From NCBI GenBank assembly GCA_030374765.1, contig JARGXX010000040.1:237795-301794 (forward strand): 64,000 nt of DNA, written 5' to 3'. Position 1 is the first letter of the stretch, and the number at the start of each line of letters is the position of its first letter. This document shows, piece after piece, positions 5,408 through 60,487 of this stretch. The stretch is from Agarophyton chilense (lineage: Eukaryota > Rhodophyta > Florideophyceae > Gracilariales > Gracilariaceae). A model generated the notes under the pieces. The model worked only from the letters and a program-made list of their open reading frames with translations, did no database searches and was not told the DNA's origin. A program made the translations under genes and the position numbers.

Positions 5408-5510
5408 AAATCACACAACCAGCTGAAGAAGCCATATAGTGCACGTGATGAAGCAAATATGAGTTTGTCTGGCGTTAGTGGAGCCAACATGGATGGGAGA
5501 ACTTTTTGAC

Positions 5511-5704
5511 CGAAGGCTACTTTCTTGCATCGTGAGCGCTTGAATGGAAATGAGGCGGCTGCTCCCACAGGTAGACAGCGTTGGGCATGAGCACAGGACT
5601 TGTCAAGTCGAATTTGAATATCGGCTCCGAAACAAATTCGGACCACAGCTATTGCTTTTTTGTAGCTCTTGAGACCGCTACCATCAAAGCTCGGCCGGAG
5701 TTTC
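5511..5704 (-). repeat. Module X, left arm of a large imperfect palindrome (copy A)
   Basis: The minus strand of this block (coding-like LRPSFDGSGLKSYKKAIAVV, then FGADIQIRLDKSCAHAQRC) reappears in inverted orientation at 9118-9306, with roughly nine bases in ten matching by eye. The zinc-finger pair lies between the two arms, so the layout is X-Y...Y'-X'. The peptide is not recognised. The stretch 5408-5510 between X and the RBR frame shows no feature. Confidence 0.8.
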
Positions 5705-6478
5705 ACATCTGATCACTCGTGTGTTCAAAGCTGCAAAAGATACTTTTCGAGCAACGTTATACTAGTATGTATCGTTTTTGAATGGCAACGATACACGTGA
5801 GGGCTTTCCAACATGTACCTCTACCCCACTACAGGAGACAAGCCAGTGACCACCACAATCACTTACTGTCCAACTGTGTTGATATCTCGAATCACTTTGT
5901 TTCCTTCGACGACACCAACTGCGGCAACTGCACCCAGAGCAACGCCGAGCGCATTTCGTTCTGCTTGTTCGTGCCATCTGCACCAGCTTCTGATTTGCAT
6001 ACGCATGTGCGTCTCTTGGAACCCAACGAATGCTGTCGTATGACAGACACCAGCGTCTTGCCATGCGGTCGACATCCATGCTGCCATGCGCTTCCCTCTG
6101 TTTTGGAACGAATATCAACGGCTGTTCAGTCCGTGATTTTGTTGGAGAGCACAGCTCCTGAAGTTCTTTCTGTTCTGATTTATTGACACAAAACTGGTCC
6201 AAGATGATTCACACCGCGTTCAAATTTTGGTTTTCACAGAGGATGGAAACCAGTGTGCTCTTTGGCTGCGATGAGAGATGATGCTCCGTGACGAAAAACT
6301 TCGAGTACTTTCGGATACTAGATTGAAGTGAAACAGATCACACTTTTCAGTACTTGGACGCTGGTGTCGCCGGCGAACACCGAGCTACCTTGCGTCTTTG
6401 CCATCAACGTTGGTCGAGAAATATCGCCCTCTGTGTGTTGAAGCGTTTCTCTCACCGTTCGTTCTGTGTACTTTACAT
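5705..6478. other. Module W, unassigned multi-copy segment (copy A)
   Basis: About 775 bases repeated at 45439-46211, 50806-51580 and 58193-58966 with small differences. All four begin at the same base after a CACATCTGATCACTCG junction, which makes it a distinct mobile or captured module. Both strands have open frames of about 75-150 codons, and none is clearly favoured. The minus frame around 5863-6087 (ALGVALGAVAAVGVVEG, then NKVIRDINTVG) is the most protein-like. No domain was recognised. It lies between the X arm and the zinc-finger gene. Confidence 0.6.
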
Positions 6479-6550
6479 GCGTTTCACTCCTTGCGTCTTC
6501 CCTCGAAATAAGCAAGGCATCTCACACAACAAATAACCCAATCATTTAAT

Positions 6551-7788
6551 ATGGACAATGAACTTGTTGCACACCAGTTTTCGGGGTTTCTCAAGAGAAG
6601 GCGATTGCACTACACAAATCGCAGCAACCAAAACAGAAGAAGCTTAGATGAGTTTCCCCGCGCTCTCCGACTACCGCCGCTTGGAAACCCTCAAGCAGGG
6701 AGTCTTCCAAGCTTTCAATCTCTATTCGGCCGCTCGGAAGATTCAAGACTTCCATCCGGCCATCGATTTATTTCTCAACGACTACCGCCGCTTGGATTAT
6801 CTCAACTGGGAAGTTTTCCGGGTTTGGAATCTTCATTTGGCCGCCCAGACGATTCCAGACTTCCATCTCGCCATCAATTTAGATCTCTTCGACTACCGCC
6901 GCTTGGAAACCCGCAACCACAAAGTCTTCCGAGTTTCCAATCTCTATTCGGCCGCCCGGAAGATTCAAGACTTGGATTCGGTCATCAACCCACTTCTTGC
7001 GATGTCCGTCGGAGTGGAAGTGGAACCGCTCGTCCCGTGTCTCTCGAATGGTTTCAGAAAGCAAGGGGCACTCACCCCATTCTTGCACTCCAGTCCTACG
7101 GAAATGAACACTACACGGAAATCCCACACCAACACCGCCATGGGGAAACAGCGTGGCGAAGAAACAGTGTTCTGGAACTACCTCAGGAGCGCAAGAGTCG
7201 GGATGGAGGCGCCCCAGAGATTGCACAGAGATTTTGTTCAGATAGCATTCGCCAATCTCCAGTTCATGTGCCTTATCCTGCCCCGGAAGCGTCGTGTCTC
7301 GTTCAAGAAGTTTCCAACCGGTCTCCTGAGCACAACCTCCGTGAAGATTCGTTGTTGCCGATACGTACAGCTCCTGCTGGTTGCTCATCATTTCCAACCC
7401 ATCAACCAGGACTCGAAAAACTTGGCATCACAGGCTCCCGTACCAAACGTCCGAAGATTTTCCAGTGTGAGTGGTGTACGAAGTCGTTTGGTCGCAAGCA
7501 TCATAAGGTGCGACACATCCAAGCCATTCATCGAAAAGTGAGTTACTTCAGCTTTCACTGCGGATCTCAATCACGTCGGTCTTTTCTAACATTTCTCTTT
7601 GCAATTGCTTTTGAAACCATCTTCTTTGACATATTCATATTGGATCGGGTAGCCAGGTTTTGCAAAGAGCACTGATCGAATTCCACATGAAAACTGCTCA
7701 TTAAGCTTTCGAGCATTTGCAATTTAGGCTGTACAAGATCTACTTTACGGAGATGGAGGATAATTTGAGCCATGTATGCGCAGAGCAC
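6551..7788 (+). pseudogene. C2H2 zinc-finger protein with 37-residue repeats (copy A)
   Basis: The open frame starts at ATG 6551 and runs to 7675. Residues about 35-155 hold three 37-residue (111-bp) repeats of the type LPPLGNPQAGSLPSFQSLFG...EDSRLPSGHQ. A Ser/Pro/Arg-rich stretch follows, then one C-X2-C-X12-H-X4-H finger (CEWCTKSFGRKHHKVRHIQA...) near 7469-7534. Copy B shows that finger 2 originally followed; here 124 bp holding it are missing. The decayed fingers 3 and 4 remain at about 7665-7788 (HMKTAH; LSHVCAEH-like). Fingers of this type bind DNA or RNA, probably in the nucleus. A second frame on the same strand is also open from 6648 to 7541. The copy is broken and probably non-functional as the full protein. 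Confidence 0.75.
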
Positions 7789-7875
7789 CCCAATCGTCAC
7801 AGTTTACCAACGGGTGTGAGGAAAGTATAGCTTGCGACTCTAGCCGTAATGGAGTAAGTTATCTACAAGCTTCTA

Positions 7876-8679
7876 TCAGTGTTCTATCGCCTGAAGGTTA
7901 TGCTCAGGAGAACTGCTTGGAAACTTCTTGCGTGGAATACAACGCTTGCGGGGCAGAACAAGGCACGGGAACTGCATATTGGTGAATGTTTTCTGAAGAA
8001 ACCCCCTGTGAAATCTCTGGCGCTCCTTCTTCCAGACTATTATGTTCCTGAAGTACTTCCAGAACGTTGCCTCTTCGCCACACTTTTTCCTCATGGTGGC
8101 TGTTGTGTGGCATTTCCGTGGGACTGGAATGAAGTCTTGGTTGGGGTAAGCGCAACTTGCTTCCTGAGACAAATTGAGAGACACCGGACGAAAGGTCCCA
8201 CTTCTACTCCGTTGGACATCACAAGAACTGGATTTATGGCCAAATCCAAGTCTTGAATCTTCCGGGCGGCCAAATGAAGATTCCAAACTTGGGAGAGTTC
8301 TCGGTTGAGATGTTCTAAGCGGGTGTTCTCGGAGAGAGCTGGTTTGATACACGGATGGAAGTCTTGAATCTTCCGGGCGGCCGGAGATGGATTCTAAGCG
8401 TGGAAGACTGCCCGTCTGAGGGTTTCCAAGCGGCGGTAGTTTAGTTGGAGAGCGGGGGGGAAACCCATCTGGGAGTCTTCTGTTTTCGTTGCTGCGATTT
8501 GGGTCGTGCAGCCCACATGCCGAAAGGCCTTGTGAGTAATTAGTATACCTATCTTGATACCGCTGGCAATCGTAAACTGAGAGAAATTCTCTAGTACGCG
8601 AAATAACAAGACACGCATTATAAGCTGTCTTCTTTTCCACACTTTTCTCGCGTTCTATCAGGACGCAAGACCGGATCAT
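7876..8679 (-). pseudogene. Mirrored zinc-finger-related copy without fingers (copy A)
   Basis: A 267-codon minus frame matches the repeat-bearing N-terminal half of the plus-strand gene at 6551. It has two 37-residue repeats (KLPPLGNPQTGSLPRLES; FGRPEDSRLGFGHKSSSC) followed by the same Ser/Arg-rich tail (CAYPNQD, VPRKCHTTATM, SSSPEHNLQ). It stops before the region that encodes fingers. The two copies converge tail to tail, with arms of about 6605-7345 and 7885-8540. The extra N-terminus (MIRSCVLIEREKS) has no equivalent in the plus gene. The matching arrangement recurs at 47613-48485 and 60488-61291. Confidence 0.75.
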
Positions 8680-27003: not shown

Positions 27004-27008
27004 GCCCG
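27004..27008. repeat. Target-site duplication GCCCG (left)
   Basis: Identical to 36120-36124 and immediately outside the two gypsy LTRs. This fixes the element borders. Confidence 0.9.
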
Positions 27009-27590
27009 TGTCGTACAATCACCTCTGGGGTCTGCTACTGTCTTGTCTCAGGAGCATGTTGACGCTCAACCTCAGAAGGTAGACATGATAAAGCTTGATG
27101 GTAACAGGTCACCGTGAAAACCCGCAGGGGCAAACGGCGGGGCAACTAGCCTACACCGTGTAGGTGAACGATGGTAGGCGTCGACGCGCGGTAAAACCTA
27201 TGTGTTAGTTGAGAAACAATGAACCAAAAGATATAGTTGTGACCCAAGTGGGGTCTGTCTTTATCAGACTAGGGTGGAGGAGGTGCAGTTCCCTATATGC
27301 AGTGGACTGCACCCTCCAGATCACCCGGAAGGTGCCAGCAAGGCACGGTCTCTGACCTAGTTTCAGAGACCTGGCCAGCACTGGCTACAGTGCCAGGTGG
27401 CCACTCCACTACTGAATTACTAACAATCACTCAACCAGAAGGTACATGTCAACACTACACGTGGCTAACAACACCTAGATGGTAACTCGCCCGGAGCTGC
27501 GTGGCCGATGATCCCTCGCATCCATCACCTACAAGGTCAGTGTAGTATATCGACAACCTCAAAGGTCAAACCTTCTGCCACTATACGACA
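27009..27590 (-). repeat. Gypsy 3' LTR (582 bp)
   Basis: Begins TGTCGTACAATC and ends CTATACGACA, so its ends are a 6-bp inverted repeat (TGTCGT/ACGACA). It is the fuller of the two LTRs. The other lacks about 208 bases corresponding to roughly 27207-27414 here. Confidence 0.92.
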
Positions 27591-27602
27591 GACCCCCTTC
27601 CT
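27591..27602 (-). other. Gypsy polypurine tract
   Basis: Read on the minus strand, AGGAAGGGGGTC lies immediately before the 3' LTR, the expected place and composition for the plus-strand primer. Confidence 0.7.
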
Positions 27603-28346
27603 ACCCGTGAGACACGCCCCGTGTCTCCTTCCACCAAACCATAAAGGTATAGAGAGCGACAGCAGCCCGGGCATCGGAGTGGTATCCGCCAGCGGTTGCT
27701 CACGGTGCGCGACGCGCGATCCCTTGTGGTTCAAAAATCGGTGCCAGTGTCGGTTGGGGAGTGCGAGTGATGACGGCGGCGGACGAATTGAGCGACAACC
27801 ATCCAGGTAGGGACTGTCATGAGGACGATGCAGTGTCAATAGCGCGCTCGCGGACACCTTTTCGGCTGTTGGACCCTGCGTTCTTGCAATTCTGCTTCTG
27901 CATAGCCCATCGTTCAACCAAGTTGGTATCGCACCTTTTTCGGTTGCTCAAACTTAATATTCCTCCTAGGTACCTGCGCGTGCCGTGCCCTCTGGGTGTT
28001 CCCACGGCTTGGCAACCCTTCAGGTATTGCTGTCCTTAATTGGCGGCATCGCGACCTTAACCGTGCTGTGCAGCTTTCCTTGAAGGTTCACTGGCTTCTC
28101 GACCTTTAAGGTTTCGTGTACCTTTTAAGGATTGATTCTTGGCGCCTGTTGGGCCTGAGCCTGCGTCGATACAACCATTGAGGTATTGACCTGGGTCCGT
28201 GGCGGAAGCTTCCGGTTGTGAGACCTTATTGGTGTTGAGCGCCCCCGTTGGTAATCGCGCGACCTTTCTCGGGTTTTTCATTCCGGTTTACCTTTAAGTC
28301 TATCACAGGATCGCGACGCCTCCACGCTCGCGTTTGAACCCATTCG
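27603..28346. other. Gypsy 3' noncoding region
   Basis: Between the polypurine tract and the antisense frames. No supported gene. It is dense in ACC-N5-GGT motifs (27638, 27798, 27917, 28015, 28102, 28174, 28223). Confidence 0.6.
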
Positions 28347-28874
28347 GTGCCACGGCGACGCACCTTGCGCCGCATCGTGGATTCGCTACCGAAAACTCGA
28401 AGGGGTGGGTCGTCCCCATACGCAGCACCAGCGCTCGAGAGACGTGAGGTGCCGGTTACCATTGAGGTTGAAGAATTAGGCGATTCCGAGGGGATTGATA
28501 CCCCTGAAGTTATGCCTTTAAGGTCGGATTGGTCGCGCTCCACGATACCTCAAAGATCAGGAACCCCTCGCGCCCGTACGATGGCAACTGTTGCACCTGA
28601 AAGATCGATGTCGGGACTACCGGAAAGGTTGGATACGTTTGCCGTCTCTTCGGAACGTACTGAGGAGGCCTCACCTCAGAAGGGTAAATACCCGCTGGAG
28701 GATACTCGCCGATTTGGTTACAAGAACATCGTTCAGGGGACCGATTATACCGTGAAGGATTTGGACTCGTATCTCGAGCAGAGCGAGAATTACCATTGGG
28801 ATTCCCATCAAGGTTGGGAGGTTTTCGATCGTGCGACTTGGACACGACTAGACACCTGTTGGTCGATATGCTGA
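28347..28874 (+). CDS. Antisense ORF in gypsy 3' region, first part
   Basis: A 175-codon frame opposite in sense to the retrotransposon genes (MPRRRTLRRIVDSLPKTRRG at the start). A basic N-terminus is followed by an acidic and Ser/Thr/Pro-rich part and an aromatic segment (RFGYKNIVQGTDYTVKDLD). No family recognised. The next antisense frame (28926) is in the same phase with two stops between, so both may come from one ancestral antisense gene. Antisense ORFs between integrase and the 3' LTR are known in some plant Tat-type gypsy elements; homology with those is not claimed. It could be spurious. Confidence 0.4.
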   Translation: MPRRRTLRRIVDSLPKTRRGGSSPYAAPALERREVPVTIEVEELGDSEGIDTPEVMPLRSDWSRSTIPQRSGTPRARTMATVAPERSMSGLPERLDTFAVSSERTEEASPQKGKYPLEDTRRFGYKNIVQGTDYTVKDLDSYLEQSENYHWDSHQGWEVFDRATWTRLDTCWSIC

Positions 28875-28925
28875 TCCCTTCCCGTCCGAGCCGTTACCTC
28901 AAGGTCGTAAGTCGCCTCTAAGGGT

Positions 28926-29564
28926 ATGACTCCTACTCAACCGAGCTCCTCGCGGGTTGCTGGTCCAGTTCGACCTCTTTTGGAGGGTATTGCTAATCCT
29001 CCGCCCCACCCTATGATGGATTCTCCGGCCGTGGTTGGTTTGTTAGCTCGAATTCGCCAGGCTTGCGTCACCAACTTTCAAAGGGCTGGGCGTACCTCCG
29101 TGGTTGCTGCATTAACACTCCTTGAAGGTTTGCCGCCGTGCCATACGAAATACATGAAGACGCTGAACCAACTTGGTGAGTTACGGAATCAGTTTCAGTT
29201 GGACATGTACCAATTGGCCACCAGTCAGGTTGCCATTCTGGCCAGCGTCTCTGCTGCTGCGCCATCTGATCCTTTGACGGATCCCCTTCTAGGTGCTAAC
29301 TTGAACCCTGCGGTTTTGCAACCCGCTCTGGCGGGTCCTTCCGTTCAACCTATGTTGGTTTCAACTCCTCTCCCCAGTAGCGGGGCTACCGCTCCTTCGC
29401 TACCTTCTATGTCGATGGCTCCTAGCATTCCTGCCAGTTCTCCTTCGCGGGTAGCCAATAAAACGGGTCCTCCGAGGTTCGATCGCGTAGAGCTACAGCT
29501 CTGGGCTTTCGGGCTGAGGTGCCTACCTCGATGCGATGTTGACCCGTTTCAGGTGCTACCGTAA
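28926..29564 (+). CDS. Antisense ORF in gypsy 3' region, second part
   Basis: A 212-codon plus-strand frame overlapping the integrase end by about 140 bases. Pro/Ser/Ala-rich ends surround a predicted helical centre (AVVGLLARIRQACVTNFQRA; LGELRNQFQLDMYQLATSQV), reminiscent of a coiled or oligomerising region. Function unknown. The long open length in a region without sense coding, and the same phase as 28347-28874, support a real gene. No promoter was identified. Confidence 0.42.
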   Translation: MTPTQPSSSRVAGPVRPLLEGIANPPPHPMMDSPAVVGLLARIRQACVTNFQRAGRTSVVAALTLLEGLPPCHTKYMKTLNQLGELRNQFQLDMYQLATSQVAILASVSAAAPSDPLTDPLLGANLNPAVLQPALAGPSVQPMLVSTPLPSSGATAPSLPSMSMAPSIPASSPSRVANKTGPPRFDRVELQLWAFGLRCLPRCDVDPFQVLP

Positions 29565-30180
29565 TACGGTCAATTGACATCGTATTCGGTATTCCATCTT
29601 GTTCAACGGTAACGGTGTGGTCTGATGCCTTCAATACCTTATAAGGTCCCACTGATTTGGGTAGAAGCTTCGAATTGATATCTCTATCAATAGCTTCATC
29701 GCCCGCTTCATCACCCGGTCGTGGTCTTTTACCTGAAGGTGGGTTGTCTATATAGACATATTGTCCCGAAGATGCAGAGACCCCTTTGGTTACCCTACGG
29801 TCGTAGTCGGCCTTACACCGCTTCTGGGCTGCAGTGAGGCGGCTCTCTGCATTTTTGAGAGCCCTCCTCAACCTCACAAGGGTATTTCGCTTGACCTGGG
29901 CAGGGGTCAGTGCGCCAGCTGCAGTGCTGGTGGTATGATCTCCCTGCACTACAATACCTGGGTGGTGTCGCGAAAGAACTAAACCAAATGGAGTGGTCTG
30001 CGTTGACCGGTGTACCTGAAGATTATAGGAGTAGGTGAGCGGTTGCACCAGCTCATCCCAACCAGTTTGGTGCTCTTCCGTATAGTGTCGTAGCCTTGAT
30101 ACCAATATGTGGTTAAAGCGCTCGACCTGTCCGTTCGTCTGCGGGTGGTAGGCAGTAGTGAAATAGTGCTTGATACCCAA
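29422..30180 (-). pseudogene. Gypsy integrase C-terminal half
   Basis: Holds the third catalytic residue in AYHPQTNGQVERFNHILVSR, the helical C-terminal part and a GPYKV-type module (LPKSVGPYKVLKASDHTVTV). It ends at a stop after KENWQEC. It is in a different frame from the pol frame that ends at 29979; a one-base change near 30185 separates them. No chromodomain, unlike the chromoviruses at 19-25 kb. Confidence 0.85.
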
Positions 30181-32437
30181 GTAACCAAGAGGTTACAGAC
30201 TGCTTCGAAGAACTTTAATGCCAGGTTTGAACCATTATCGGTAAGGAAGTACAGTTTTGCACCATACGGGTAGACCCAATTGTTGAGGAACGCGATCGCC
30301 GGCGTTGTTAACTTCGTATCCTTTAAAGTAATCGCTCCCGTGAGCTTCGAGATCCTGTCGGTGATCACTAGAATGTGCTGATACCCATTCTTGGTCTTGG
30401 GAAGTGGTCCTAGAAGGCCTTTCGCAACAAACTCCAGCCGACCCGCTGCTGGAAACAGCTTGAGGTATTTTCGATGCTTTTGAATACCACCGCGGGTACG
30501 AACATAGGATTCGCATTGACCTACAAAGGTATAGATATCATGGGCCATATGAGGCCAGTAGAACTGTTGCCTCAAGGTGTAATATATACTGGTGGCACCG
30601 GGGTGTCCCGATAGTCGCAGGGAGTGCGCGAGATACAAGACTTTCGGGCGAAGCGCTTTCGGAACCACATTTTGAAGGCCACCATCCAAGGTTGACCTTC
30701 TCACGATGTACCCATTGTGGTCCGCATCGAATTGTGATCCTTTGAAACCAATTTGGTCATCCATTTTTCTGCAGTACGCATCCTGGACCTGTTCTCGTAG
30801 GAATTCCTCGCGGGTTACGGGCATGAAGTTCGTTTCCTCTAGGGTCGGTATCTTAGTTGCGATGTCGTTGTTCCGCAAAGCACCACTTTCAGGTAAGTAC
30901 CAACATCCTTCTAGGTGTTCGCCGGTACCATTTTGGTTTGATGATACCCAAAAGCAAGGGATATCATCGTCCACAGGTTCTGTCTCTAACCCTGAGGAGT
31001 TTAAGCGTGACATAGCATCAGCTATGTTGTGCTTGATACCTGGACGGTATTGTCCGTCGTATTCAAACTCCGTCAGTCTCAACCTCCAACGGGCAAGTCT
31101 ACCAGAGGCCTCTGCGAGTCCGAGGATCCACCTTAAGGCGTTGTGGTCCGTGTGCAACGTAAAGCGCTCACCATACAGGTATGGACGGAGCATCAACATG
31201 CTCCACACTACTGCGAGACATTTCTTCTCGGTTACCGTGTAGTTCTGCTCCGCCTCATTAATAGCGTTGCTGCAGTCCCCTATAAGTAATTTGTCTCCGT
31301 TGTGCTGCTCCTGCATGAGACAACATCCAATTTGGGCATGGGATGCATCCGTATCCAGCGTGTACGGTAGACCTGTTTTCGGTAACGCTAAGATTGGCGG
31401 GGACAAAGGCGCTCGTTTCAATTCCTCAAAGGTATCCATTTCGTTGTTCGATAGATTCTCAAACCGTTCAGGTTCACCTTTCTGGAGCTTCTTGTTGAGG
31501 GGAACCGCTATTTTCGCGAATCCCTTCACGAAGCGACGATAGACGTTGCATAAACCTATAATGGATCGTACGTCTGTCTGGTATCGTGGCACTTTGACCT
31601 TCTGTACGGCTCTAGTATTACTCGGCGCAATCTCTAGGGTACCAGGGCTTATGATGTGGCCCAGGTATTCAACCGTTCTGGTAAAGAAGACGCATTTTCG
31701 TAGCTTCAGCGTCACCCCCGCCTCAGCTAGGAGGTTTAGTACGGTGCGCACGTGAGCAAAATGCTCTTCTACCGATCTGGAGTAGATGATTACATCATCG
31801 ATGTATACCAAGGCGGTTGTCCACTTACCCTTCGAAAGGATGATGTCCAGCGCCCTTTGAAAGGTGGCTGGAGCATTGCGCAACCCGAATGGCATCCGCG
31901 TGAAGCGAAACAAACCTGAATGCCACATGAAGGTCGTTTTTTCTCGATCTGTTTCACCTACAGGTACCTGCCAATAACCACAATTGGCATCCAACATGGT
32001 AAATATCTGCACATCTCCCATGGATTCGATGCACTCATCCATTCTAGGTATCTGGTACGAATCCCTGACGGTCACGCTATTGAGCCCCCTGTAGTCCACA
32101 CAGAACCTCATACTGTTATCCCCTTTCTTCTGAACCAGAACCACGGGACTAGCCCAATCTGCGTTGGCTAGTTCAATTACACCTTCTTGGAGCATTCGCT
32201 CCATTTCTTTGAGTTCTACTTCTCTCGCCTTCGGACCTGCGCGGTATGGTTGCTGATAAATAGGCTTCGAGTCCGGGAGGAGCTCGATGCGATGCTGTGT
32301 GGCCTTTATTTGGCCCAGATGGCCTGACCACGTCGTTTTGAACTCCTCCAGAAGGTCGATAATACGGCCCCGCAGTTCGCCGTTTTCTTCACCGATCTGG
32401 ATTGCATCTTCCCATTGCTGCTCAGGGTCAGGTTCAT
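29979..32437 (-). pseudogene. Gypsy pol: reverse transcriptase, RNase H, integrase N-terminal half
   Basis: Long open frame. The reverse transcriptase shows FCVDYRGLNSVTVRDSYQIP, FTMLDANCGYWQVPV, FRFTRMPFGLRNAPATFQRA and the catalytic LVYIDDVIIYS (about 31785). RNase H shows YTLDTDASHAQIGCCLMQE, YTVTEKKCLAVVW and FTLHTDHNALRWI. The integrase zinc region (SGHPGATS; QCESYVRTRG) has its last Cys replaced by Tyr. In the core the usual MDLLGPLP reads AKGLLGPLP, so the first Asp is lost, while LTDNGSN keeps the second. The first ATG in frame is 32204, but the domain starts upstream (YQQPYRAGPKAREVELKEME). Confidence 0.92.
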
Positions 32438-32475
32438 CTTACTTGTCTACCGATTCCTTATCGGTTAGCTCTGGG

Positions 32476-32838
32476 TTAAAGTTGGTGTTTATCGATACCT
32501 TTGCAGTTGTGGACGCATTTGCGCACCCCCCCTTCCTTATCGAAGGCGACCTCGCCGAGATCAGTGTGAGCTACGGTGAAGTCCCCTTGTGATGCCGGTA
32601 GTGCGATGCCAACATTGGTATTCTTCGGCAACTTCACGTTGTGACTGCTGAAGTTGCTGAGACACACCTTAAAGGGTTGATTTGGGATGCTGTAGACAAT
32701 CCCGTTGGCCATCAAGGTGAGGTATCGATGTGCTAACCTCGGATGGTTTTCTAGTATGACCAGCCCTGGGGTCGCACACGACACCGGTACCAATATTTGG
32801 TGCAATGGCGGGATAACAACCTGTTTGGTAAGGCGCAC
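32476..32838 (-). pseudogene. Gypsy protease-reverse transcriptase linker
   Basis: A 120-codon frame (VIPPLHQILVPVSCATPGLV; LTLMANGIVYSIPNQPFKVC; NVKLPKNTNVGIALP) matching the beta-rich spacer found between protease and reverse transcriptase in many gypsy polyproteins. A stop at 32476 and a frame change separate it from pol. Confidence 0.65.
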
Positions 32839-32901
32839 TTTGTTGGAGACCGTTTCGGTGGATATCGTCTTCTTCGGTTTAAAGAACCATCCCCGTTTGG
32901 T

Positions 32902-33389
32902 TTACGTATTACCTACAATGGCAATTCGTCCCCCGTGACGTAGGGTGACGGTACGGGAACCAGGAAGAATTGCTTTGACATGTCTGTCAATGAAGTTCGT
33001 ACCTAGTAGGCAGTCTGTTGGTAAACGGTAGACAAAAAAGAATTGCAGTCTTACCTTGAGGTGTCCGAGCTGCACCAAGTGGTGAGCATACCTCGAAGGT
33101 TTAATGGGCACTCATTTGCATCCACCAGCGGGTTTTTGTCGGAAGGTCAGCTCAAGTTCCGAAGTACCGCCTCAGGTATGACGCGGGAGTTCAGGACGTT
33201 TGGGCCGGCCACAGTATTCCACACGCAGGTGACCGGGACCGCAAGGCGATCGGATAAACACATTGAAGCACGTACTTTATAGTTGTTGTACTTCATAAGA
33301 CAAACCGGAACTGGTTGTGACGTGTTGTCTTCCACCTTCAAGGTTCTGGGTATCGATTGGCCTTCCAATTGAAGGTTGCGTTCGGCCAT
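32902..33389 (-). pseudogene. Gypsy aspartic protease, active site lost
   Basis: Two overlapping frames. The first (33147-33389) carries the active-site region as VWNTVAGPNVLNSRVI. By comparison with the family's DTGAGPN, the catalytic Asp is Asn and the Gly is Val. The second (32902-33111) has the C-terminal YRLPTDCLLGTNFIDRHVKA part. Retropepsin would process Gag-Pol; this copy cannot. A frame change lies near 33111-33147. Confidence 0.8.
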
Positions 33390-34303
33390 TACGCCAACCG
33401 TTCGGTGTTTTCCTCCTGTACGGGAGGGGTTGAGTCCAAGTTTGGTGTTTCCTCGATGGTATTGACCTGTACCGGTGTACGGGGTTGGAACCTATTTGGT
33501 GCTTGCGTTGAAGACTTATAGAGGCGTTGGTGATTCTGCATGCGAGTCTGAGTCAACTGGTCACTCATCGCTGGGGGTAAATTAGCGCAATTGCTTGCCA
33601 AAGGGTCTGTCGCAATACAGAACTAGCAAACGAGGCCTCCAGTTTGGGGGTCTCGCGTTACCATTGAGGGGGGCTTCGAAACCTGGTTGGTAGGAGAAGT
33701 GGCGTAGGATGTGGGTGGCGAGTTATGGGAGCTTGTTCCCTGCATCCTCTGCGAGCTCATTGCACTTGGCGGCGATTGTACCGAGTTTGGTGTACGCGTT
33801 GACGACCAATTCCCTACCGTCGAAAGTTTCGAGAACCGCCCCTGGGTCGCTACCAAGTGGATAGCGGTCCCTGTAGGTACTTCGATGTGCCAGCTGCACT
33901 CTGAGGTTGTGGTCTCTTCAATTTCCAAGAAGGACCTTTTCGATTTTTCCTTCGAGGTTTGAGGAATGGCTGGTCTCTTTCCCAGCCGAAGAGTATCTCC
34001 AAGGCCCTGGGAGTATCGAGCCAGCCCATTGTATTCTACCTTTCGGTTAATGGCCAAGTAGTTGCGTACCTGGCAACGGATCGCTTTGTCGACATTGTCA
34101 GCCAATAGCGACCTTAACCTAGAGGTAGTGAACACATTACCACAGCGGGTTGCCAGATTCCACAGCGCGAGCGAAAACTTCGATTCGGTTTTCCCAGACC
34201 TTTGATGGTAAGCGAGGACTTCCGAATAAGTCTCTTGGATAACCTCATCGGTGGCGTATGTTTCCAAAAGGAAATTGACCACCTCTGGGTATGACTCCAA
34301 CAT
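33390..34303 (-). pseudogene. Gypsy gag, capsid C-terminal part
   Basis: 33623-34303 is open. It shows the helical capsid-type segment VIQETYSEVLAYHQRSGKTE with FSLALWNLATRCGNVFTTSR and the Ser/Pro/Thr-rich tail. Another short frame (33389-33601) completes it before the protease. A frame change near 34303-34373 links it to the upstream gag half. No classic zinc knuckle was seen. Confidence 0.7.
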
Positions 34304-34372
34304 CTCTGTGCCATCCTAATCCATCGCTAAGGTATTGCCGCGGAGCCTTCCCTGCAGCAAGTAGTATGCTTG

Positions 34373-35697
34373 TCATTTCAGGTAAAACTGAAATAGCCAC
34401 ATAGCAGCGCCCTCGGAAAAACCATTTTGGTCACATGCAAGCTTGAACTTCTGTAGAAACTCAATCACCGCAATAGGATCCGTAATTGTGAAGGTTGTGT
34501 CACCCATTTGGAAGCTGAGCTTCTTGTGGTGCTTAGTAATCTTCTGAGCAACCTCTTGGGTGTATTCAGACGACTTGTTGATCAACCGATAGTTCCTGTA
34601 GTCAACCGCTTTGGTGAACATATCGTTCAAGGGTTGGTGCACCTCCAGGTCTATTTCGGTGTCCGACTCAGAGTCGGACGACTCATTGTATCGCTTCTTA
34701 CCTTTTCGGTTCTTTTTCGACGACTTCTTCGTCGACCTGTTCGGTTTCTTCTTCTTCTTACCTTTACGGTCATCATCCGACGATGAACTCGTATCGGAAC
34801 TGGAGTCCGACGAGTCCGGGTCTGAATCATCCCCTCGATTATTTCCCGTCTTCGTCCTCCGCTTCTTACCCTTTCGGTTTCTTCGTCGCTCATCCAACGA
34901 GTCAGACGAATCTTCCTTGGGATCACCTCCGTGGGTATCTTTAGAACGAAACCAGTAATTGGTGGCAGATAAATGTCTTGAGGATCTAAATTCCCCGGGA
35001 CCTCTTGACTCTGCTTCGGACCTTGTAGGTACTCACTTTCAGTCGGTAAGTGTTTGGAATGGGTGTAATGACCCATTTAGAACCCTTGTTGTATGCGCTT
35101 TGCAATGTTCACCTGTGTAGGTCGGGATTCTGCGAATCCCTCGGAAACCCCAAGGTCTTGCCCCGCGCGGTAAACATGCTCCCTAGCATCTGTAAAGAGG
35201 TACTGTTTCACCATTTCTGGTATCCTGTCCGATAGCTCTTGAGCTGCTCGGTCAACCACAATACGGGTAAATGCATCGGCGTCCATTGAGGTCGGAACCA
35301 TCCGGGTATCCGACTTCTCCTTTAAGGTTAATGCATCCTCGACCGCGAGGGTGACGAGCGCTTTCGCTTGCTCTTCGAGCTAAGGCCATAGCTCCTCGGC
35401 TGCAACCTAAATTGGTAATTCCCTTTGAGGTTCTGTTGCCATAGGCGGCGGACCATGTACCTTTACGGTTTTGTCCCGAGTGTGCTGGAGCAGCTCCTCG
35501 GGGTTCTCTAGAATCGGGTGAGCCGATGGGGCTCCTTTAATAGCTTTATGGCTTGGCGGGGCGCTCGCACCACGCGTATTCCGTTTAGGTTGTTCCATTT
35601 TTGACCAATAGTGGTATCCTGTATTGCTTTGCTGGATTTCCTGAAACCAAATAGGTGTACAAGCGTCCAATCCTTCTCGGAATCTCGTTTGAACCAT
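34373..35697 (-). pseudogene. Gypsy gag, N-terminal part with charged low-complexity region
   Basis: Pieces at 35407-35697 (starts MVQTRFREGLDACTPIWFQE, just inside the 5' LTR), 35077-35301 (AAQELSDRIPEMVKQYLF) and 34373-34897. The last has an Asp/Ser stretch and Lys-rich blocks (DRKGKKKKKPNRSTKKSSKK), then LSFQMGDTTFTITDPIAVIE leading into the capsid. Frames are broken by stops at about 35407 and 35077. The first ATG inside the LTR fits a gag start at 35697. Confidence 0.72.
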
Positions 35698-35724
35698 GAA
35701 GATACGACGAAACCTAAAAAAACT

Positions 35725-35742
35725 TTCTAAATCGGGAGACCA
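35725..35742 (-). other. Gypsy primer-binding site (putative)
   Basis: On the minus strand the 5' LTR is followed, after three bases, by TGGTCTCCCGATTTAGAA. It starts with TGG, complementary to a tRNA CCA end. The tRNA was not identified. Confidence 0.5.
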
Positions 35743-35745
35743 AAA

Positions 35746-36119
35746 TGTCGTACAATCACCTCTGGGGTTTGCTACTGTCTTGTCTCGGGAGCGTGTTGAC
35801 GCTCAACCTTAAAAGTTAGACGTGATAAACCTCGATGGTAACAGGGCACCGTGAAAACCCGCAGGGACAAACGGCGGGGCAACTAGCCTACACCGTGTAG
35901 GTGAACGATGATAGGCGTTGACGCGCGGTACAACCTAAATTACAATTACTAACAATCACTCAACCAGAAGGTACATGTCAACACTACACGTGGCTGACAA
36001 CACCTAGATGGTAACTCGCCCGGAGCTGCGTGGCCGATGATCCCTCGCATTCATCACCGACAAGGTCAGTGTAGTATATCGACAACCTCAAAGGTCAAAC
36101 CTTTTGCCACTATAAGACA
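35746..36119 (-). repeat. Gypsy 5' LTR (374 bp, internally deleted)
   Basis: Begins TGTCGTACAATC and ends TATAAGACA. Collinear with the left LTR except for a missing block of about 208 bases after GCGCGGTACAACCTA. As the 5' LTR would supply the promoter, the deletion may have silenced the element. Confidence 0.92.
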
Positions 36120-36124
36120 GCCCG
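36120..36124. repeat. Target-site duplication GCCCG (right)
   Basis: Identical to 27004-27008. Confidence 0.9.
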
Positions 36125-42379: not shown

Positions 42380-45074
42380 CTCAGAACTGCCCTCGGTTGT
42401 AATCGGATATGTACATTTCTACGGAGCGCTACAACTATCTACTGCACCAAACTCACCTTCAGACCTCCATGTCGTCCCCATCGGCACCTTGCGACACATT
42501 ACCATCTTCCGCATCTCCTGAATCGGTCTCTGTACTGCTCACAACTCAACTTGATCTTCCGATGACTTCTTGCACCTCCCGCCGCACTGCGGTACATCTT
42601 GCGTCGGCAACCGGCCCATCGAAACTCAGTGGTCGATACCGTCTTCTCTCCCAGCTTCTGTGACTCACTGCAACATTTCCGATAGGACTTTCCCCAAAGG
42701 CGAATGGTGACCGAGTACCCGGTGTCATTGAACCCAGATCGTTGCCTTGACTTCTCCGCACGCTGTGCTGTCAACTCAGAGCCATATTCCTCGTTGACGG
42801 TGACATGAGAGAAACAAAAATCGATCCGATTTGTTTTGGGGATATCTGTGTCTTCATGATGCGCATAGCACTCTGCAATAATTTACGATCAATATCCTCA
42901 AACATTTTCTTTTGTTCCCTTCCCTGACGGCGGCTTGCCCGTCTGGAAAGGTCATTCAAACCTTCTGAAGCTTGGTCGTCTGCCTTACTCGCTCGCAATG
43001 CTTCCGCTAATCTCTTTGCATCTCGGCCTCCATTATCTTCGCCCGTCAGTACGATGAAGTTGCTCATGTAAGGCACAAACACTTCGTTATAGAAGCGAAT
43101 GATATCGCCTGTCTCTTCAGCCGTCGATTCCGGTCGTGGCCCACTATCATCGGCAGCATCTTCCGCCAACAAATGCCCGAAATCTCCGAGAAAAATGTTA
43201 CGGGACACTGGTGGAGAATTGCTCAGAAATGTGGAATCACTTGTGTGCTCCAATTGATTGTAGTGCCACACGATATGGCGGAACTGCAGTTGGATATGTT
43301 GGATCTTGGCCACGCCATCTATCACAAACAGGATGATCAAGTCAATATGTCTGTTGACTGTCAAATTCCATCTGCACCACAGAGCATACTGCACGCTTTT
43401 CCACACTGCCGAACGAAGGTTGGTGGGGCCAAGTCTTCCTAACAAATCCCCTATTCTAGTGCTTGCCAGGGCAAACAATTTTTCAAAAAAGAAGTCTAGA
43501 ACTCTTGCTCTGGCTTCAACATCTCCGTACAGTCGTTCCGGACGCCCCATTTCTTTCAACCTTAGTGTGATCATCGCCTTTGTTTCTATACGTTGTCCTT
43601 CTTCGATCTTCTGCTTTTGCGGCGTAATCGGGGATTGTTCTACACTTTCTGGCTGTTCATTATGTTCTGGTGACTGATCGGACATCTGTGTGTTCACCAA
43701 CACTCGCTCCGACAAATTTCTCTTTTGGTTAGAACGGTTTCTGCTCATCTTGCGTACAAAGGAAATCTCGACTACATGCTTGAAGAACTCGTACCAGAGG
43801 CGAGTCATGTCTCCATGCCATCCATTCTAGAATACGAGCGTCACAGCTATTCGAATGATTAACCAAGCGATGTGGCATCTGTGGTACAAGGGTATAGAAT
43901 GTTTACAGCGCCTCGTAAGCTCAAAGGGTGATACATTGAACGCACGATAGGCAACTGTGAAAACGTGAAGATCCCTTCTACCCTAGGCATAGACAGCGGT
44001 ATCCCACGCGAAAGTGAGAAAGCTTTTGTGTAGGATGTAGTTGTGAAGTACATTGCTATTAAACTTTTCAGGCTGTTCGCGTAACCGACGAAGTTCCTTC
44101 TCGAGAATACCTTCGATGGTTGAGAAACAGATAGCCAGAGCTTCACGTTTGTACCGGGAATTATTCAGATCCGTAATCACGTCACAAGGCATCAGAGTAC
44201 CGTCTGCCAACATCAATGATAGCGTATAATGGGCGACCACCCCCAGTGACCCTTCTCAGATCGTGCGATATAGCCACACTTTCTGGCGGGCATGTGAGAC
44301 ACGTTTCGCTTCGAGTTTCTGGTCGTTTCTGCTTCAGCTCACTGATCCATGTTGCAGATCGATTGTTGTCAGTGCCGGGAGTGAGAGCAATGTTTGATGA
44401 TGGAGGTATAGGAGGCACGATAGTCGTACAGTGCGGCGTAACGACAGCTACTGTGGCCAGTGCCTCCAATGCATCAGGGTGAGTGGACAGATAGCGTGAG
44501 AAGCGAACCGGGAATGACAGTGACGAATGCATGGCAGATTGAGTGCGCGTGCGACACGGCGTAGGCGGGCGGGCTTATGATGGGGTGACGGCAAAGTCGG
44601 AAGCCTTCCGAAGATTTCGGGGGCGTGGGGTAGGTGCTGCAGACTGGTTTTCGCCGTCCATACGACGTTTGCGATTGAGAGGTGTGGAAGGCTGTGATGA
44701 GGCTTTAGGCGTTGATGGTGCTGCGTGGGTAGTGGGCTGGGCCGGAGATCGTACGGGCACAGACGGGTCCTTGTTGCGTTTGAACGGTGCAGCGACGGAT
44801 GGTTGTACTGGGCGGAGGCTTTGCCGCGAAGTTGATGTTCCAGCGCATGAAGACTGACGTGGTAAGGGGAGCGAGAGTGGTAAAACGGCAACGGCAGTAA
44901 GCTGTGGCGCGTGAAGAAAGATACGTTCGTCGCTTACAATACGGTCATCGACAGCGGTGAGTTGTTGTGCATACAATTCATCTATTGACTTGCCATGGGC
45001 ATCGATATCATCTTCAGTAGCCTGAAAGAACGATAACCGAGTGAGGATAGCGGGGGGTAGGAGAGTTACAACTG
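42380..45074 (-). pseudogene. RBR-like pocket protein, most continuous copy (copy C)
   Basis: A 345-codon frame (42771-43808) spans the A/B spacer (QSPEHNEQPESVEQSPITPQ), an uninterrupted B pocket (codons about 102-255: RVLDFFFEKLFALASTRIG, RHIDLIILFVIDGVAKIQ, DIIRFYNEVFVPYM) and the start of the C-terminal region (QIGSIFVSLMSPSTRNM). The TGA at 42771 replaces the CGA of copy B. Beyond it lies MTPGTRSPFAFGESPIG, like the RB C-terminal segment. Upstream, the A pocket has the same TAG and frame breaks as copy A. It starts at the module Z junction, so the N-terminal domain is truncated before SFFQATEDDIDAHGKSIDE. Confidence 0.85.
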
Positions 45075-52070: not shown

Positions 52071-53444
52071 AGAACTGCCTTCGGTTGCAATCGGATATGT
52101 ACATCCCTACGGAGCGCTACAACTGTCTGCTGCACCAAACTCACCTTCAGACCTCCATGTCGTCCCCATCGGTACCTTGCGACACATTACCATCTTCCGC
52201 ATCTCCTGAATCGGTCTCTGTACTTCTCACAACTCAACCTGATCTTCCGATGACTTCTTGCACCTCCCGCCGCACTGCGGTACATCTTGCGTCGACAACC
52301 GGCCCGTCGAAACTCAGTGGTCGATACCGTCTTCTCTCCCGGCTTCTGTGACTCACTGCAACATTTCCGATAGGACTTTCTCCAAAGGCGAATGGTGACC
52401 GAGTACCCGGTGTCATTGAACCCAGATCGTTGCCTTGACTTCTCCGCACGCTGTGCTGTCGACTCAGAGCCATATTCCTCGTGGACGGTGACATGGGAGA
52501 AACAAAAATCGATCCGATTTGTTTTGGGGATCTTTGTGTCTTCATGATGCGCATAGCACTCTGCAATAATTTACGATCAATATCCCCAAACATTTTCTTT
52601 TGTTCCCTTCCCTGACGGCGGCTTGCCCGTCTGGAAAGGTCATTCAAACCTTCTGAAGCTTGGTCGTCTGCCTTACTTGCTCGCAATGCTTCCGCTAATC
52701 TCTTTGCATCTCGGCCTTCAATATCTTCGCCCGTCAGTACGATGAAGTTGCTCATGTAAGGCACAAACACTTCGTTATAGAAGCGAATGATATCGCCTGT
52801 CTCTTCAGTCGTCGATTCCGGTCGTGGCCCACTATCATCTGCAGCATCTTCCGCCAACAAATGCCCGAAATCTCCGAGAAAAATGTTATGGGACACTGGT
52901 GGAGAATTGCTCCGAAATGTGGGATCACTTGTGTGCTCCAATTGATTGTAGTGCCACACGATATGGCGGAACTGCAGTTGGATATGTTGGATCTTGGCCA
53001 CGCCATCTATCACAAACAGGATGATCAAGTCAATATGTCTGTTGACTGTCAAATTCCATCTGCACCACAGAGCATACTGCACGCTTTTCCACACTGCCGA
53101 ACGAAGGTTGGTTTGGGTGTCCAAATCAGGGGATCGCAGGCAAGAGAGAGAGAGCATTGCTAAGCAACGAGTGCGCGCGGTTGGCAGCGTGCCGGGGCAT
53201 TATGCGGGCGTACTGCTCGTCGCGCAAGACCGTGAGAAGGGTTTCGAGTGCATGGTTGGGTTTGTTGAGCAAAGAGACGGCGTCCATGACGGCGCACATG
53301 AGCGTGGTGTGATGAGCGGTGAAATTGGGCTGATCGGATGCGCGCAGGGACGAGAGCAAGTCGGGAAGTAGGGCGGCGACTACTTCAAAGTGATTTTCGT
53401 GAAGGTGATGGAGCACGGCAAGAAGCGCGGAAAGGATGGCGTGC
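51677..53444. repeat. Inverted repeat HEAT-RBR, about 395-bp arms
   Basis: Left arm 51677-52070 and right arm 53048-53444 are reverse complements with few differences by eye. The 977-bp spacer holds the RBR C-terminal region. A transcript through it could form a long hairpin. Confidence 0.8.
52071..53111 (-). pseudogene. RBR-like protein, B pocket and C-terminal region (copy B)
   Basis: Open on the minus strand to 52234 without the copy C nonsense codon. B pocket (RHIDLIILFVIDGVAKIQ; DIIRFYNEVFVPYM), then a Ser/Arg/Lys-rich stretch (EGLNDLSRRASRRQGREQKK), then QIGSIFVSPMSPSTRNMA and DLGSMTPGTRSPFAFGESPI, resembling the RB C-terminal region with SP/TP sites. The open frame runs in from HEAT-side sequence at 53157, so it is an accidental chimera. 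Confidence 0.85.
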
Positions 53445-55805: not shown

Positions 55806-57895
55806 TGGGGCCAAGTCTTCCTAACAACTTTCCTATTCTAGTGCTTGCCAGGGTACACATCTTTTCAAAAAAGAACTCAAGAACTCTTGCTCTGGCTTCA
55901 ACATCTCCGTACAGTCGTTCCGGACGCCCCATTTCTTTCAACCTTAGTGTGATCATCGCCTTTGTTTCTATACGTTGTCCTTCTTCGATCTTCTGCTTTT
56001 GCGGCGTAATCGGGGATTTTTCTACACTTTCTGGCTGTTCATTATGTTCTGGTGACTGATCGGACATCTGTGTGTTCACCAACACTCGCTCCGTCAAATT
56101 TCTCTTTTGGTTAGAACGGGTTCTTCTCATCTTGCGTACAAAGGAAATCTCGACTATATGCTTGAAGAACTCGTACCAGAGGCGAGTCATGTCTCCATGC
56201 CATCCATTCTAGAATACGAGCGTCACAGCTATTCGAATGATTAACCAAGCGATGTGGCATCTGTGGTACAAGGGTATAGAATGTTTACAGCGCCTCGTAA
56301 GCTCAAAGGGTGATACATTGAACGCACGATAGGCAACTGTGAAAACGTGAAGATCCCTTCTACCCTAGGCATAGACAGCGGTATCCCACGCGAAAGTGAG
56401 AAAGCTTTTGTGTAGGATGTAGTTGTGAAGTACATTGCTATTAAACTTTTCAGGCTGTTTGCGTAGCCGACGAAGTTCCTTCTCGAGAATACCTTCGATG
56501 GTTGAGAAACAGATAGCCAGAGCTTCACGTTTGTACCGGAAATTATTCAGATCCGTAATCACGTCACAAGGCATCAGAGTACCGTCTGCCAACATCAATG
56601 ATAGCGTATAATGGGCGACCACCCCCAGTGACCCTTCTCAGATCGTGCGATATAGCCACACTTTCTGGCGGGCATGTGAGACACGTTTCGCTTCGAGTTT
56701 CTGGTCGTTTCTGCTTCAGCTCACTGATCCATGTTGCAGATCGATTGTTGTCAGTGCCGGGAGTGAGAGCAATGTTTGATGATGGAGGTATAGGAGGCAC
56801 GATAGTCGTACAGTGCGGCGTAACGACAGCTACTGTGGCCAGTGCCTCCAATGCATCAGGGTGAGTGGACAGATAGCGTGAGAAGCGAACCGGGAATGAC
56901 AGTGACGAATGCATGGCAGATTGAGTGCGCGTGCGACACGGCGTAGGCGGGCGGGCTTATGATGGGGTGACGGCAAAGTCGGAAGCCTTCCGAAGATTTC
57001 GGGGGCGTGGGGTAGGTGCTGCAGACTGGTTTTCGCCGTCCATACGACGTTTGCGATTGAGAGGTGTGGAAGGCTGTGATGAGGCTTTAGGCGTTGATGG
57101 TGCTGCGTGGGTAGTGGGCTGGGCCGGAGATCGTACGGGCACAGACGGGTCCTTGTTGCGTTTGAACAGTGCAGCGACGGATGGTTGTACTGGGCGGAGG
57201 CTTTGCCACGAATTTGATGTTCCAGCGCATGAAGACTGACGTGGTAAGGGGAGCGAGAGTGGTAAAGCGGCAACGGCAGTAAGCTGTGGCGCGTGAAGAA
57301 AGATACGTTCGTCGCTTACAATACGGTCATCGACAGCGGTGAGTTGTTGTGCATACACTTCATCTATTGACTTGCCATGGGCATCGATATCATCTTCAGT
57401 AGCCTGAAAGAACGATAACCGAGTGAGGATAGCGGGGGGTAGGAGAGTTACAACTGCGCGTGGGTGCCGCATGTTGCGATTGAAAAGGTCCTCGGGGGAG
57501 CGTGCGTTGAGTATGAACTCCGGAATGTGACGGACTTGGGCGTTGGCGGCGGAGAGTAACTGTGTGATGGGAAGCTGGGTATCTGATCGGCGCGGTAGGC
57601 GACGGAGCGATGTAAAGAACACAGGCGGAGGTGTATAGATTCGGGGACCGGGGCTCGGCGGAGTTGTGGATGGTGTGCGCCAAATTAGCGATACGGGTGG
57701 GAAGGGCGAGGCTTTGAACGAGGAGGTTGATACAATCCGCCGGGGGGGACTGCGCTTGCTGTGGTTGCTTGGGCTGTTGGTGGTTGTGTTGCGAGTGAGT
57801 CTGTATGTGAGAGGGGGCGGGAGAGGGGGTAGAACAGCACACGTAAACGCTAATTCAGTGTCCCGAGAATACCGGGAAAATGGAAAGCAGCGCAT
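55806..57895 (-). pseudogene. RBR-like protein, N-terminal and A-pocket part (copy B)
   Basis: As 3318-5407, with the same TAG and frame breaks. A few replacements relative to copy A: VHHIPE is VRHIPE, NNSRYKR is NNFRYKR, YTPLP is YTPPP. Confidence 0.82.
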
Positions 57896-57998
57896 AAATC
57901 ACACAACCAGCTGAAGTAGCCATATAGTGCACGTGATGAAGCAAATATGAGTTTGTCTGGCGTTAGTGGAGCCAACATGGATGGGAGAACTTTTTGAC

Positions 57999-58192
57999 CG
58001 AAGGCTACTTTCTTGCATCGTGAGCGCTTGAATGGAAATGAGGCGGCTGCTCCCACAGGTAGACAGCGTTGGGCATGAGCACAGGATTTGTCAAGTCGAA
58101 TTTGAATGTCGGCTCCGAAACAAATTCGGACCACAGCTATTGCTTTTTTGTAGCTCTTGAGACCGCTACCATCAAAGCTCGGCCGGAGTTTC
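57999..58192 (-). repeat. Module X, left palindrome arm (copy B)
   Basis: As 5511-5704. Inverted partner at 61730-61918. Confidence 0.8.
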
Positions 58193-58966
58193 ACATCTGA
58201 TCACTCGTGTGTTCAAAGCTGCAAAAGATACTTTTCGAGCAACGTTATACTAGTATGTATCGTTTTTGAATGGCAACGATACACGTGAGGGCTTTCCAAC
58301 ATGTACCTCTACCCCACTACAGGAGACAAGCCAGTGACCACCACAATCACTTACTGTCCAACTGTGTTGATATCTCGAATCACTTTGTTTCCTTCGACGA
58401 CACCAACTGCGGCAACTGCACCCAGAGCAACGCCGAGCGCATTTCGTTCTGCTTGTTCGTGCCATCTGCACCAGCTTCTGATTTGCATACGCATGTGCGT
58501 CTCTTGGAACCCAACGAATGCTGTCGTATGACAGACACCAGCGTCTTGCCATGCGGTCGACATCCATGCTGCCATGCGCTTCCCTCTGTTTTGGAACGAA
58601 TATCAACGGCTGTTCAGTCCGTGATTTTGTTGGAGAGCACAGCTCCTGAAGTTCTTTCTGTTCTGATTTATTGACACAAAACTGGTCCAAGATGATTCAC
58701 ACCGCGTTCAAATTTTGGTTTTCACAGAGGATGGAAACCAGTGTGCTCTTTGGCTGCGATGAGAGATGATGCTCCGTGACGAAAAACTTCGAGTACTTTC
58801 GGATACTAGATTGAAGTGAAACAGATCACACTTTTCAGTACTTGGACGCTGGTGTCGCCGGCGAACACCGAGCTACCTTGCGTCTTTGCCATCAACGTTG
58901 GTCGAGAAATATCGCCCTCTGTGTGTTGAAGCGTTTCTCTCACCGTTCGTTCTGTGTACTTTACAT
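58193..58966. other. Module W (copy B)
   Basis: As 5705-6478. Confidence 0.6.
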
Positions 58967-59038
58967 GCGTTTCACTCCTTGCGTCTTCCCTCGAAATAAG
59001 CAAGGCATCTCACACAACAAATAACCCAATCATTTAAT

Positions 59039-60400: not shown

Positions 60401-60487
60401 CCCAATCGTCACAGTTTACCAACGGGTGTGAGGAAAGTATAGCTTGCGACTCTAGCCGTAATGGAGTAAGTTATCTACAAGCTTCTA

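Follow-up and report, generated by a model that had tools for sequence, protein, structure and literature searches.

A 64,000-nucleotide stretch of the red alga Agarophyton chilense (contig JARGXX010000040.1, positions 237,795 to 301,794 of the forward strand; hereafter the window) was analyzed with respect to the element at positions 27009-36119. This element, referred to as family A, is a single Ty3/gypsy long terminal repeat (LTR) retrotransposon on the minus strand, and it is filled with a gapped palindrome in which ACC and GGT are separated by five bases (ACC-N5-GGT, or N5 site; other gaps are named likewise, N4-7 denoting gaps of four to seven bases). LTR ends of the type TG...CA, a target site duplication (TSD), a primer binding site and a polypurine tract were all recognized by sequence reading. 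The LTR ends at 27009 and 36119, with GCCCG on both sides, agree exactly with the boundaries given in the original prediction, an earlier annotation of this DNA. Features are listed below with the basis of each call in brackets (ORF, open reading frame).

27004..27008, no strand: TSD GCCCG, left copy (sequence)
27009..27590, minus: 3' LTR, 582 b, TGTCGTA...TACGACA, six N5 sites as counted on 27013-27594 (repeat search and sequence)
27021..36095, no strand: 56 ACC-N5-GGT sites, the first starting at 27021 and the last at 36085 (count)
27591..27601, minus: polypurine tract GGAAGGGGGTC, adjoining the 3' LTR (sequence)
27595..29421, minus: long 3' part with no recognized gene, 13 N5 and 20 N4-7 sites (site-density count)
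28347-28874 and 28926-29564, plus: two antisense ORFs within the 3' part (no coding constraint)
29422..30180, minus: integrase C-terminal ORF, 252 aa, in a frame different from that of the main pol ORF (ORF list)
29979..32204, minus: pol ORF, 741 aa, with reverse transcriptase, RNase H and integrase zinc domain (ORF list and Pfam)
32476..32838, minus: ORF fragment between gag and pol, 120 aa (ORF list, Pfam and shuffles)
33623..34303, minus: gag fragment, 226 aa (position and by-eye likeness to the family B gag ORF)
34373..34897, minus: gag fragment, 174 aa, rich in charged residues, seven N5 sites versus 1.51 in synonymous shuffles (ORF list)
35725..35742, minus: primer binding site TGGTCTCCCGATTTAGAA (sequence)
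35746..36119, minus: 5' LTR, 374 b, six N5 sites, density computed on 35749-36119 (repeat search and sequence)
36120..36124, no strand: TSD GCCCG, right copy (sequence)

Pfam matches in pol comprised RVT_1, RNase H and the integrase zinc domain. The integrase core stayed under the cut-off, unlike that of family B, a related family described below, and the C-terminal ORF matched rve_3 at E 7e-4, which is under that family's cut-off. The domain order reverse transcriptase - RNase H - integrase in pol of both families is that of Ty3/gypsy. The chromodomain PF00385, precomputed for many relatives, had no match in the window or in the family B integrase ORF. The 5' LTR is approximately 210 b shorter than the 3' LTR through an internal gap. 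Because gag is fragmented and the integrase end lies in another frame, this copy looks broken.

The genome comprises 79.8 Mb in 135 contigs, of which 297 kb were sampled besides the window, a few loci overlapping one another or the window; transposon families other than that of the element were sampled only, and copies within one family are not independent. Among the 60 that were scored of 5,312 candidates, at least six further pol copies were 100% identical (contigs C40, C42, C44, C45, C48 and C51). A copy on C54 has its right flank in common with the window and a 96% identical copy in locus L041 its left flank; these two are therefore segmental duplicates rather than new insertions.

In the 9,111 b of the element, 56 ACC-N5-GGT sites were counted, whereas 200 dinucleotide shuffles averaged 2.77 and never exceeded 8. 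The earlier estimate of about 50 sites with about two expected was thus slightly off in both figures (56 and 2.8), while the enrichment itself is stronger than had been stated. Among all pairs of 3+3 bases with gaps of 0-20 and at least 10 occurrences, ACC-N5-GGT had the highest z score (19.4), and the pairs ranked directly below it were largely overlapping words of the same motif. The N4 and N6 variants noted previously were clearly enriched (18 and 22 sites), as was N7 (15), giving 111 dispersed N4-7 sites (12.2 per kb) with free spacers rich in A and T. Only four N5 sites were present in the remaining 54.9 kb of the window. Genome-wide, ACC-N5-GGT occurred 36,542 times versus 21,482 for the reversed pattern; at the control gap ACC-N9-GGT, the counts were 19,435 versus 23,107. 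Tandem repeats are not the source of the sites: Tandem Repeats Finder gave just four rows of about two copies of 10-12 b each, and the repeat search found no direct repeats of at least 60 b in the element besides the LTRs. Spacing of the sites was more even than random in family A (coefficient of variation 0.76) and not in family B (0.95), and even spacing was dropped as a general feature on account of the latter.

As had been proposed, sites were found in every part of the element, i.e. both LTRs, the 3' non-coding part, pol, gag and the 5' part, with N5 densities from 3.9 per kb (pol) to 16.2 per kb (5' LTR) and in mixed codon phases. An origin in codon or amino-acid constraint, composition or chance has to be considered, given that codons supply part of the N5 sites in some ORFs (synonymous-shuffle means of 0.14-5.55). 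Ten ORFs were shuffled: five sense and two antisense ORFs of the window, and three of family B. N5 alone exceeded all 500 synonymous-codon shuffles in five of the ten and did not in the other five. However, N4-7 counts, a comparison set beforehand as a refutation test, exceeded all 500 in eight of the ten. The pol ORF held nine N5 and 20 N4-7 sites versus 2.65 and 5.81 expected from synonymous shuffles. Moreover, LTRs and non-coding parts are equally dense. The synonymous shuffles thus refute a codon cause, which is now virtually inconceivable.

Enrichment in other copies, the other refutation test set beforehand, was evident at all 30 loci found by pol protein (the first being that of the window itself), with 14-29 N5 sites per approximately 5 kb versus 0-3 for a control pattern. 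It extends to a second family, B, which has about 70% DNA identity to A where alignable and a pol that is 67% identical in protein. One family B element was delimited:

C1:118373-137880 (L044:374 to L043:7881): family B element, about 19.5 kb between the LTR outer ends, TSD AGCCA

Other elements are nested inside it. Family B is equally saturated (114 N4-7 sites in 7.1 kb), so that A and B both carry about one site per 63-82 bp. The 10-kb locus L043 held 55 N5 and 39 N4 sites and includes the end of a nested A-like element. In the pol searches (P0025, P0160), a protein of the pseudoscorpion Cordylochernes scorpioides appeared with 42% and 38% identity among mostly unnamed relatives; it may represent contamination or transfer. 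No relatives were found in the viral contig collection.

No N5 excess was detected in Copia elements of the same genome (one N5 site in 56,196 b from 15 mostly near-identical loci, L045-L059), and their combined N4-7 density was 0.9 per kb versus 12.2 in family A. A distant gypsy fragment (L066; 2.4 kb, 42% GC) likewise held a single N5 site and showed no excess. The Copia element has a 99% identical fragment, covering 38% of the query, in EukProt transcriptome GEZJ01003471 and a 45% match in Chondrus crispus; these matches point to a red alga as host. Searches for elicitin and Zn2Cys6 proteins were negative, but they were negative in every control genome as well and so do not demonstrate absence. 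Among the 150 best Copia matches, many of them with ORFs near 1394 aa, dense clusters were located on C2, C6, C25, C68, C75, C91 and C108; clustering on several contigs looks like that of centromeres.

Conservation between A and B was determined in aligned internal blocks of 68-76% DNA identity. Both arms were kept at 22 of 38 A sites and 23 of 47 B sites (N4-7), versus 5/39 and 5/44 for control ACC/GGT pairs at gaps of 8-30 (p=4e-5 and 1e-4). Conservation at synonymous positions, proposed earlier as a check, was apparent in 615 aligned pol codons, where third-position identity was 20/27 and 27/35 in arms versus 8/28 and 10/33 in spacers, 30/58 and 28/56 in lone ACC/GGT, and 243/560 and 234/547 elsewhere; many sites enter both directions, which are not independent of each other. 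Selection has kept many arms across the long A/B split and is not visible over the recent past of old copies. In comparison with a nested A-like element, differences were not significant (12/20 and 8/20; 12/12 and 8/12).

The tolerance of the half-sites was analyzed at N5 in A and B. Altering one half was tolerated for AAC (40 versus 14.1), TCC (41 versus 15.9) and CCC (25 versus 14.5), each of them raised on either side when A, B and L042 (an old copy about 90% identical to A) were pooled. Changes of the inner C were not tolerated (ACA 5 versus 11.6, ACG 6 versus 13.0, ACT 4 versus 11.4). When both halves were altered alike, the excess was gone (AAC..GTT 5 versus 4.5, TCC..GGA 4 versus 4.0). 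Wobble variants were not enriched in the pooled set (GCC..GGT 12 versus 10.5, ACT..GGT 6 versus 8.6). This grammar would fit the expected behavior of two identical readers on DNA. Together with the mixed codon phases and third-position conservation, the symmetric additive tolerance without G-U preference supports the proposal of a palindromic half-site pair that behaves like a DNA-level signal.

Two further gypsy families carry other palindromes. Family C (loci L060-L065 and L067) has a pol 48-56% identical to that of A, and family E (L003-L008) has about 70% DNA identity to C. Neither showed an N5 excess of the A/B type (C, five N5 in 8.8 kb with N6 mildly raised to 12; E, seven N5 in 5.3 kb). 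In family C, the inner pair of CC-N6-GG was complementary in 81 of 134 cases versus 34 expected, with all four pair types represented (A-T 15, C-G 14, G-C 28, T-A 24), and TCCG-N4-CGGA occurred 4,769 times genome-wide versus 618 for the reversed pattern. Exact hairpins with a 4-bp stem and a 4-base loop numbered 85 versus 27 in C. The excess in E peaked at 3-base loops (stems of at least 4, 83 versus 23; at least 5, 32 versus 6). Stem-4 counts with loops of 3-5 exceeded 100 of 100 synonymous shuffles in both families, whereas stems of 4 and 5 in A and B were mostly not above such shuffles. The arms of C and E vary in sequence yet remain complementary. Either self-complementarity as such would be what counts in these families, in the manner of hairpins, or a set of related dimers would act.

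These observations are points for an explanation by dispersed hairpins in genomic RNA or single-stranded cDNA, read by Gag for packaging or assembly, with a stem of 3-5 bp and a loop of 3-7 nt, the stem being fixed as ACC/GGU in A and B and free in C and E. The flexible gap of 4-7 suits such loops, and at gap 9 in E the mismatches G-T plus T-G numbered 21 while A-C plus C-A numbered 2. Folding was also more stable than in shuffles on both strands of A, L042, B, C and E (mean z -0.21 to -0.84), with no such excess in Copia (0.13, 0.07) or the rest of the window (0.02, -0.07). In addition, a CX2CX4HX4C pattern seen by eye in the gag ORFs of B and C is presumably akin to a zinc knuckle. However, wobble was not favored overall on the sense strand of C and E, and mismatches in C leaned the opposite way (inner pair, G-T/T-G 9 and A-C/C-A 15; outer pair, 5 and 14). 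The folding excess was similar in size on both strands, or differed without constant sign, which we count in favor of a DNA-level signal. Sense-strand stems tolerating G-U, our own mark of packaging signals, were thus not found apart from the local exception at gap 9 in E. In A and B, complementary stems changed on both sides were, with one exception, not enriched, while the mismatched AAC..GGT was, and a fourth pair was avoided. RNA hairpins were rejected for A and B by the wobble and both-sides tests; the same additive tolerance without G-U preference makes a DNA-binding dimer fit better. The evidence counts less strongly against hairpins in single-stranded DNA, where G-T would not be used, than against those in RNA. 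Overall, we regard dispersed hairpins as a possible but rather doubtful explanation.

Stems were not conserved between C and E: pairs were kept at 0.547 and 0.492 (control about 0.49), and compensatory changes were not above control (0.027 and 0.022 versus 0.035). This lack of overall conservation speaks against fixed functional positions in C and E and adds to the points against hairpins. Twelve partly overlapping stems occupied shared places in the two families, with compensatory changes at two of these places. Reverse-transcriptase template switching that perfects quasi-palindromes would yield lineage-specific positions and, in C and E, arms that are strictly Watson-Crick and lack G-U. Such a mutational origin leaves the fixed ACC arm in A and B and the third-position conservation of arms unexplained, and it requires a reason why Copia has no excess; we consider it improbable.

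A solo LTR of 914-916 b with 5-bp TSDs GGGAT and CCACC was observed at L041:8038-8951 and L044:2213-3128. The same end, followed by a sequence resembling a primer binding site, is present in L064, and this is probably the LTR of family C. As TSDs are 5 bp long, an integrase favoring ACC-N5-GGT around a 5-bp staggered cut could make the element a landing pad for nested insertions. Palindromes around the TSD are known as integrase targets, e.g. ANGTT-TSD-AACNT in Tos17 (PMC6911290), in which half-sites likewise flank 5 bp. Unlike in Tos17, none of four independent readable insertions, a small sample, lay within the motif (A, CGA-GCCCG-ATG; B, GGC-AGCCA-TTC; C LTR, CTT-GGGAT-CAC and CTA-CCACC-ATG), and further spacings (N4, N6 and N7) were enriched as well. 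An integration target is therefore very unlikely.

The reading that we prefer, with about even confidence, is that the A/B sites are selected cis-acting dyads in double-stranded DNA, putative targets of a homodimer with a role in family self-recognition. The half-site would be approximately (A>T,C)(C>A)C, with halves four to seven bases apart and five as the optimum. A protein may bind these sites, their density rather than their position may be what matters, and the role could lie in self-recognition of the family in the nucleus, in transcription, chromatin or anti-silencing. Self-recognition appears the most economical function because of the density, the family specificity and the between-family conservation of the sites. 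The nearest parallels are VANC and the repeated-motif (RM) palindromes of plant Sireviruses. The binder would more probably be a host protein or an unrecognized part of Gag or integrase than a product of the antisense ORFs. The latter, put forward previously as candidate binders, were rejected, since substitutions were even over the frame positions (112/120/131 and 19/19/20). In-frame stops were present in five of nine copies examined for ORF 28926-29564 and in none of six, most of them partial, for ORF 28347-28874.

Several observations weigh against this reading. The Watson-Crick coupling with free base identity in C and E is unexplained by half-sites. In A and B, one variant changed on both sides was raised (GCC..GGC 7 versus 3.3), and depleted near-misses were not mirror images (AGC..GGT 1 versus 9.4, its mirror 8 versus 10.6; A, B and L042 pooled). 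Of 225 A and B sites, only 30 had a complementary pair just outside the motif (25% expected, p=2e-5); the sites tend to end at three pairs, for which a dimer offers no reason. Spacers of 4-7 bp rotate the half-sites by about 100 degrees around the helix, which is unusual for a rigid dimer; a flexible joint in the putative homodimer would suit them. No binding domain above the cut-off was found in the family B ORFs scanned beyond retroelement domains, with a single weak match below it in gag (CCDC106, E 0.014). Third positions of arms differed less clearly from lone ACC/GGT (p 0.06 in A, 0.015 in B), and no selection signal was seen relative to L042 (56/89 versus 56/93; 57/78 versus 55/91), as expected of dead copies, although this confirms nothing. 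Finally, the Copia loci contained 42 N4 and 44 N8 sites in total (about three of each per locus, with two to three N4, one in a single locus, and two to four N8), which are perhaps single conserved sites in near-identical copies, or chance.

VANDALs are DNA transposons of Arabidopsis. The parallel drawn in the original prediction to their VANC proteins holds in its logic, with a dense short motif in one transposon family that is rare elsewhere, other families having been sampled only in our case, and with related families having different motifs that change together with the binder (PMC5735166). It fails in anatomy: the non-palindromic VANC21 motif YAGTATTAY keeps mainly to non-coding DNA, has a single orientation and spreads by, and often forms, tandem repeats (PMC5735166), whereas that of A and B is a palindrome with a gap, present in both the coding and the non-coding parts of an LTR retrotransposon and, in family A, outside tandem repeats. 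VANC is moreover encoded by the element, while the A/B binder is putative, with Gag and integrase as remaining candidates. The Sirevirus RMs resemble our case in that LTR retrotransposon families hold a palindrome in many copies, its CGG-CCG core being constant whether or not other bases intervene, and in that variants exist between families. They reach up to 32 units per element, as boxes whose identity within an element commonly exceeds 85%, and these cluster in LTRs or next to env and form CpG islands (PMC2829016). Here, by contrast, 111 N4-7 sites are dispersed over the element including gag and pol, the element is gypsy and not Copia, and the core is ACC-GGT and not CGG-CCG. Dispersed packaging signals of RNA viruses likewise consist of many short degenerate sites along the genome; these are RNA sites (PMC6281560), and the G-U and strand tests do not favor RNA here. 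Nothing equivalent was found in a literature search outside of which most subscription journals lie.

The palindromes of C and E differ from those of A and B, so that the recognition code appears to vary from family to family. Tentatively, this gypsy clade may write a family-specific palindromic code along its whole length, protein genes included. A co-evolving recognizer would read this code at the DNA level, and each family would thereby tag its own DNA, either to escape silencing or to be expressed selectively. Families A and B would use ACC-N4..7-GGT, family C palindromes with a CC core and a 4-base spacer, and family E palindromes with short spacers, implying at least two code switches in one genome and a reader in C and E that senses self-complementarity, not fixed bases; we know of no transcription factor that does so. 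How host or element discriminates among transposon families by sequence is an open question, for which VANC is, to our knowledge, the clearest known case. With around a hundred sites in each copy, coding DNA included, the elements offer a compact motif for catching the reader, and neighboring families with different palindromes form a natural series in which the joint change of reader and motif can be followed. Should the reader prove to be Gag, the same sites would represent assembly signals dispersed along an LTR retrotransposon.

Elsewhere in the window, near-identical ORF sets lie about 52.5 kb apart (4469-8679 and 56957-61291; also 42771-43808 and 52234-53157), a segmental duplication on contig C40. 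The duplicated ORF 59039-60250 resembles a C2H2 zinc-finger protein by eye and had no relative at E<=1e-3. Further, 5S rRNA genes were present in spaced arrays on the small contigs C56, C57, C101 and C102; at a distance of about 2.4 kb from some of these genes, the opposite strand gave weaker matches.

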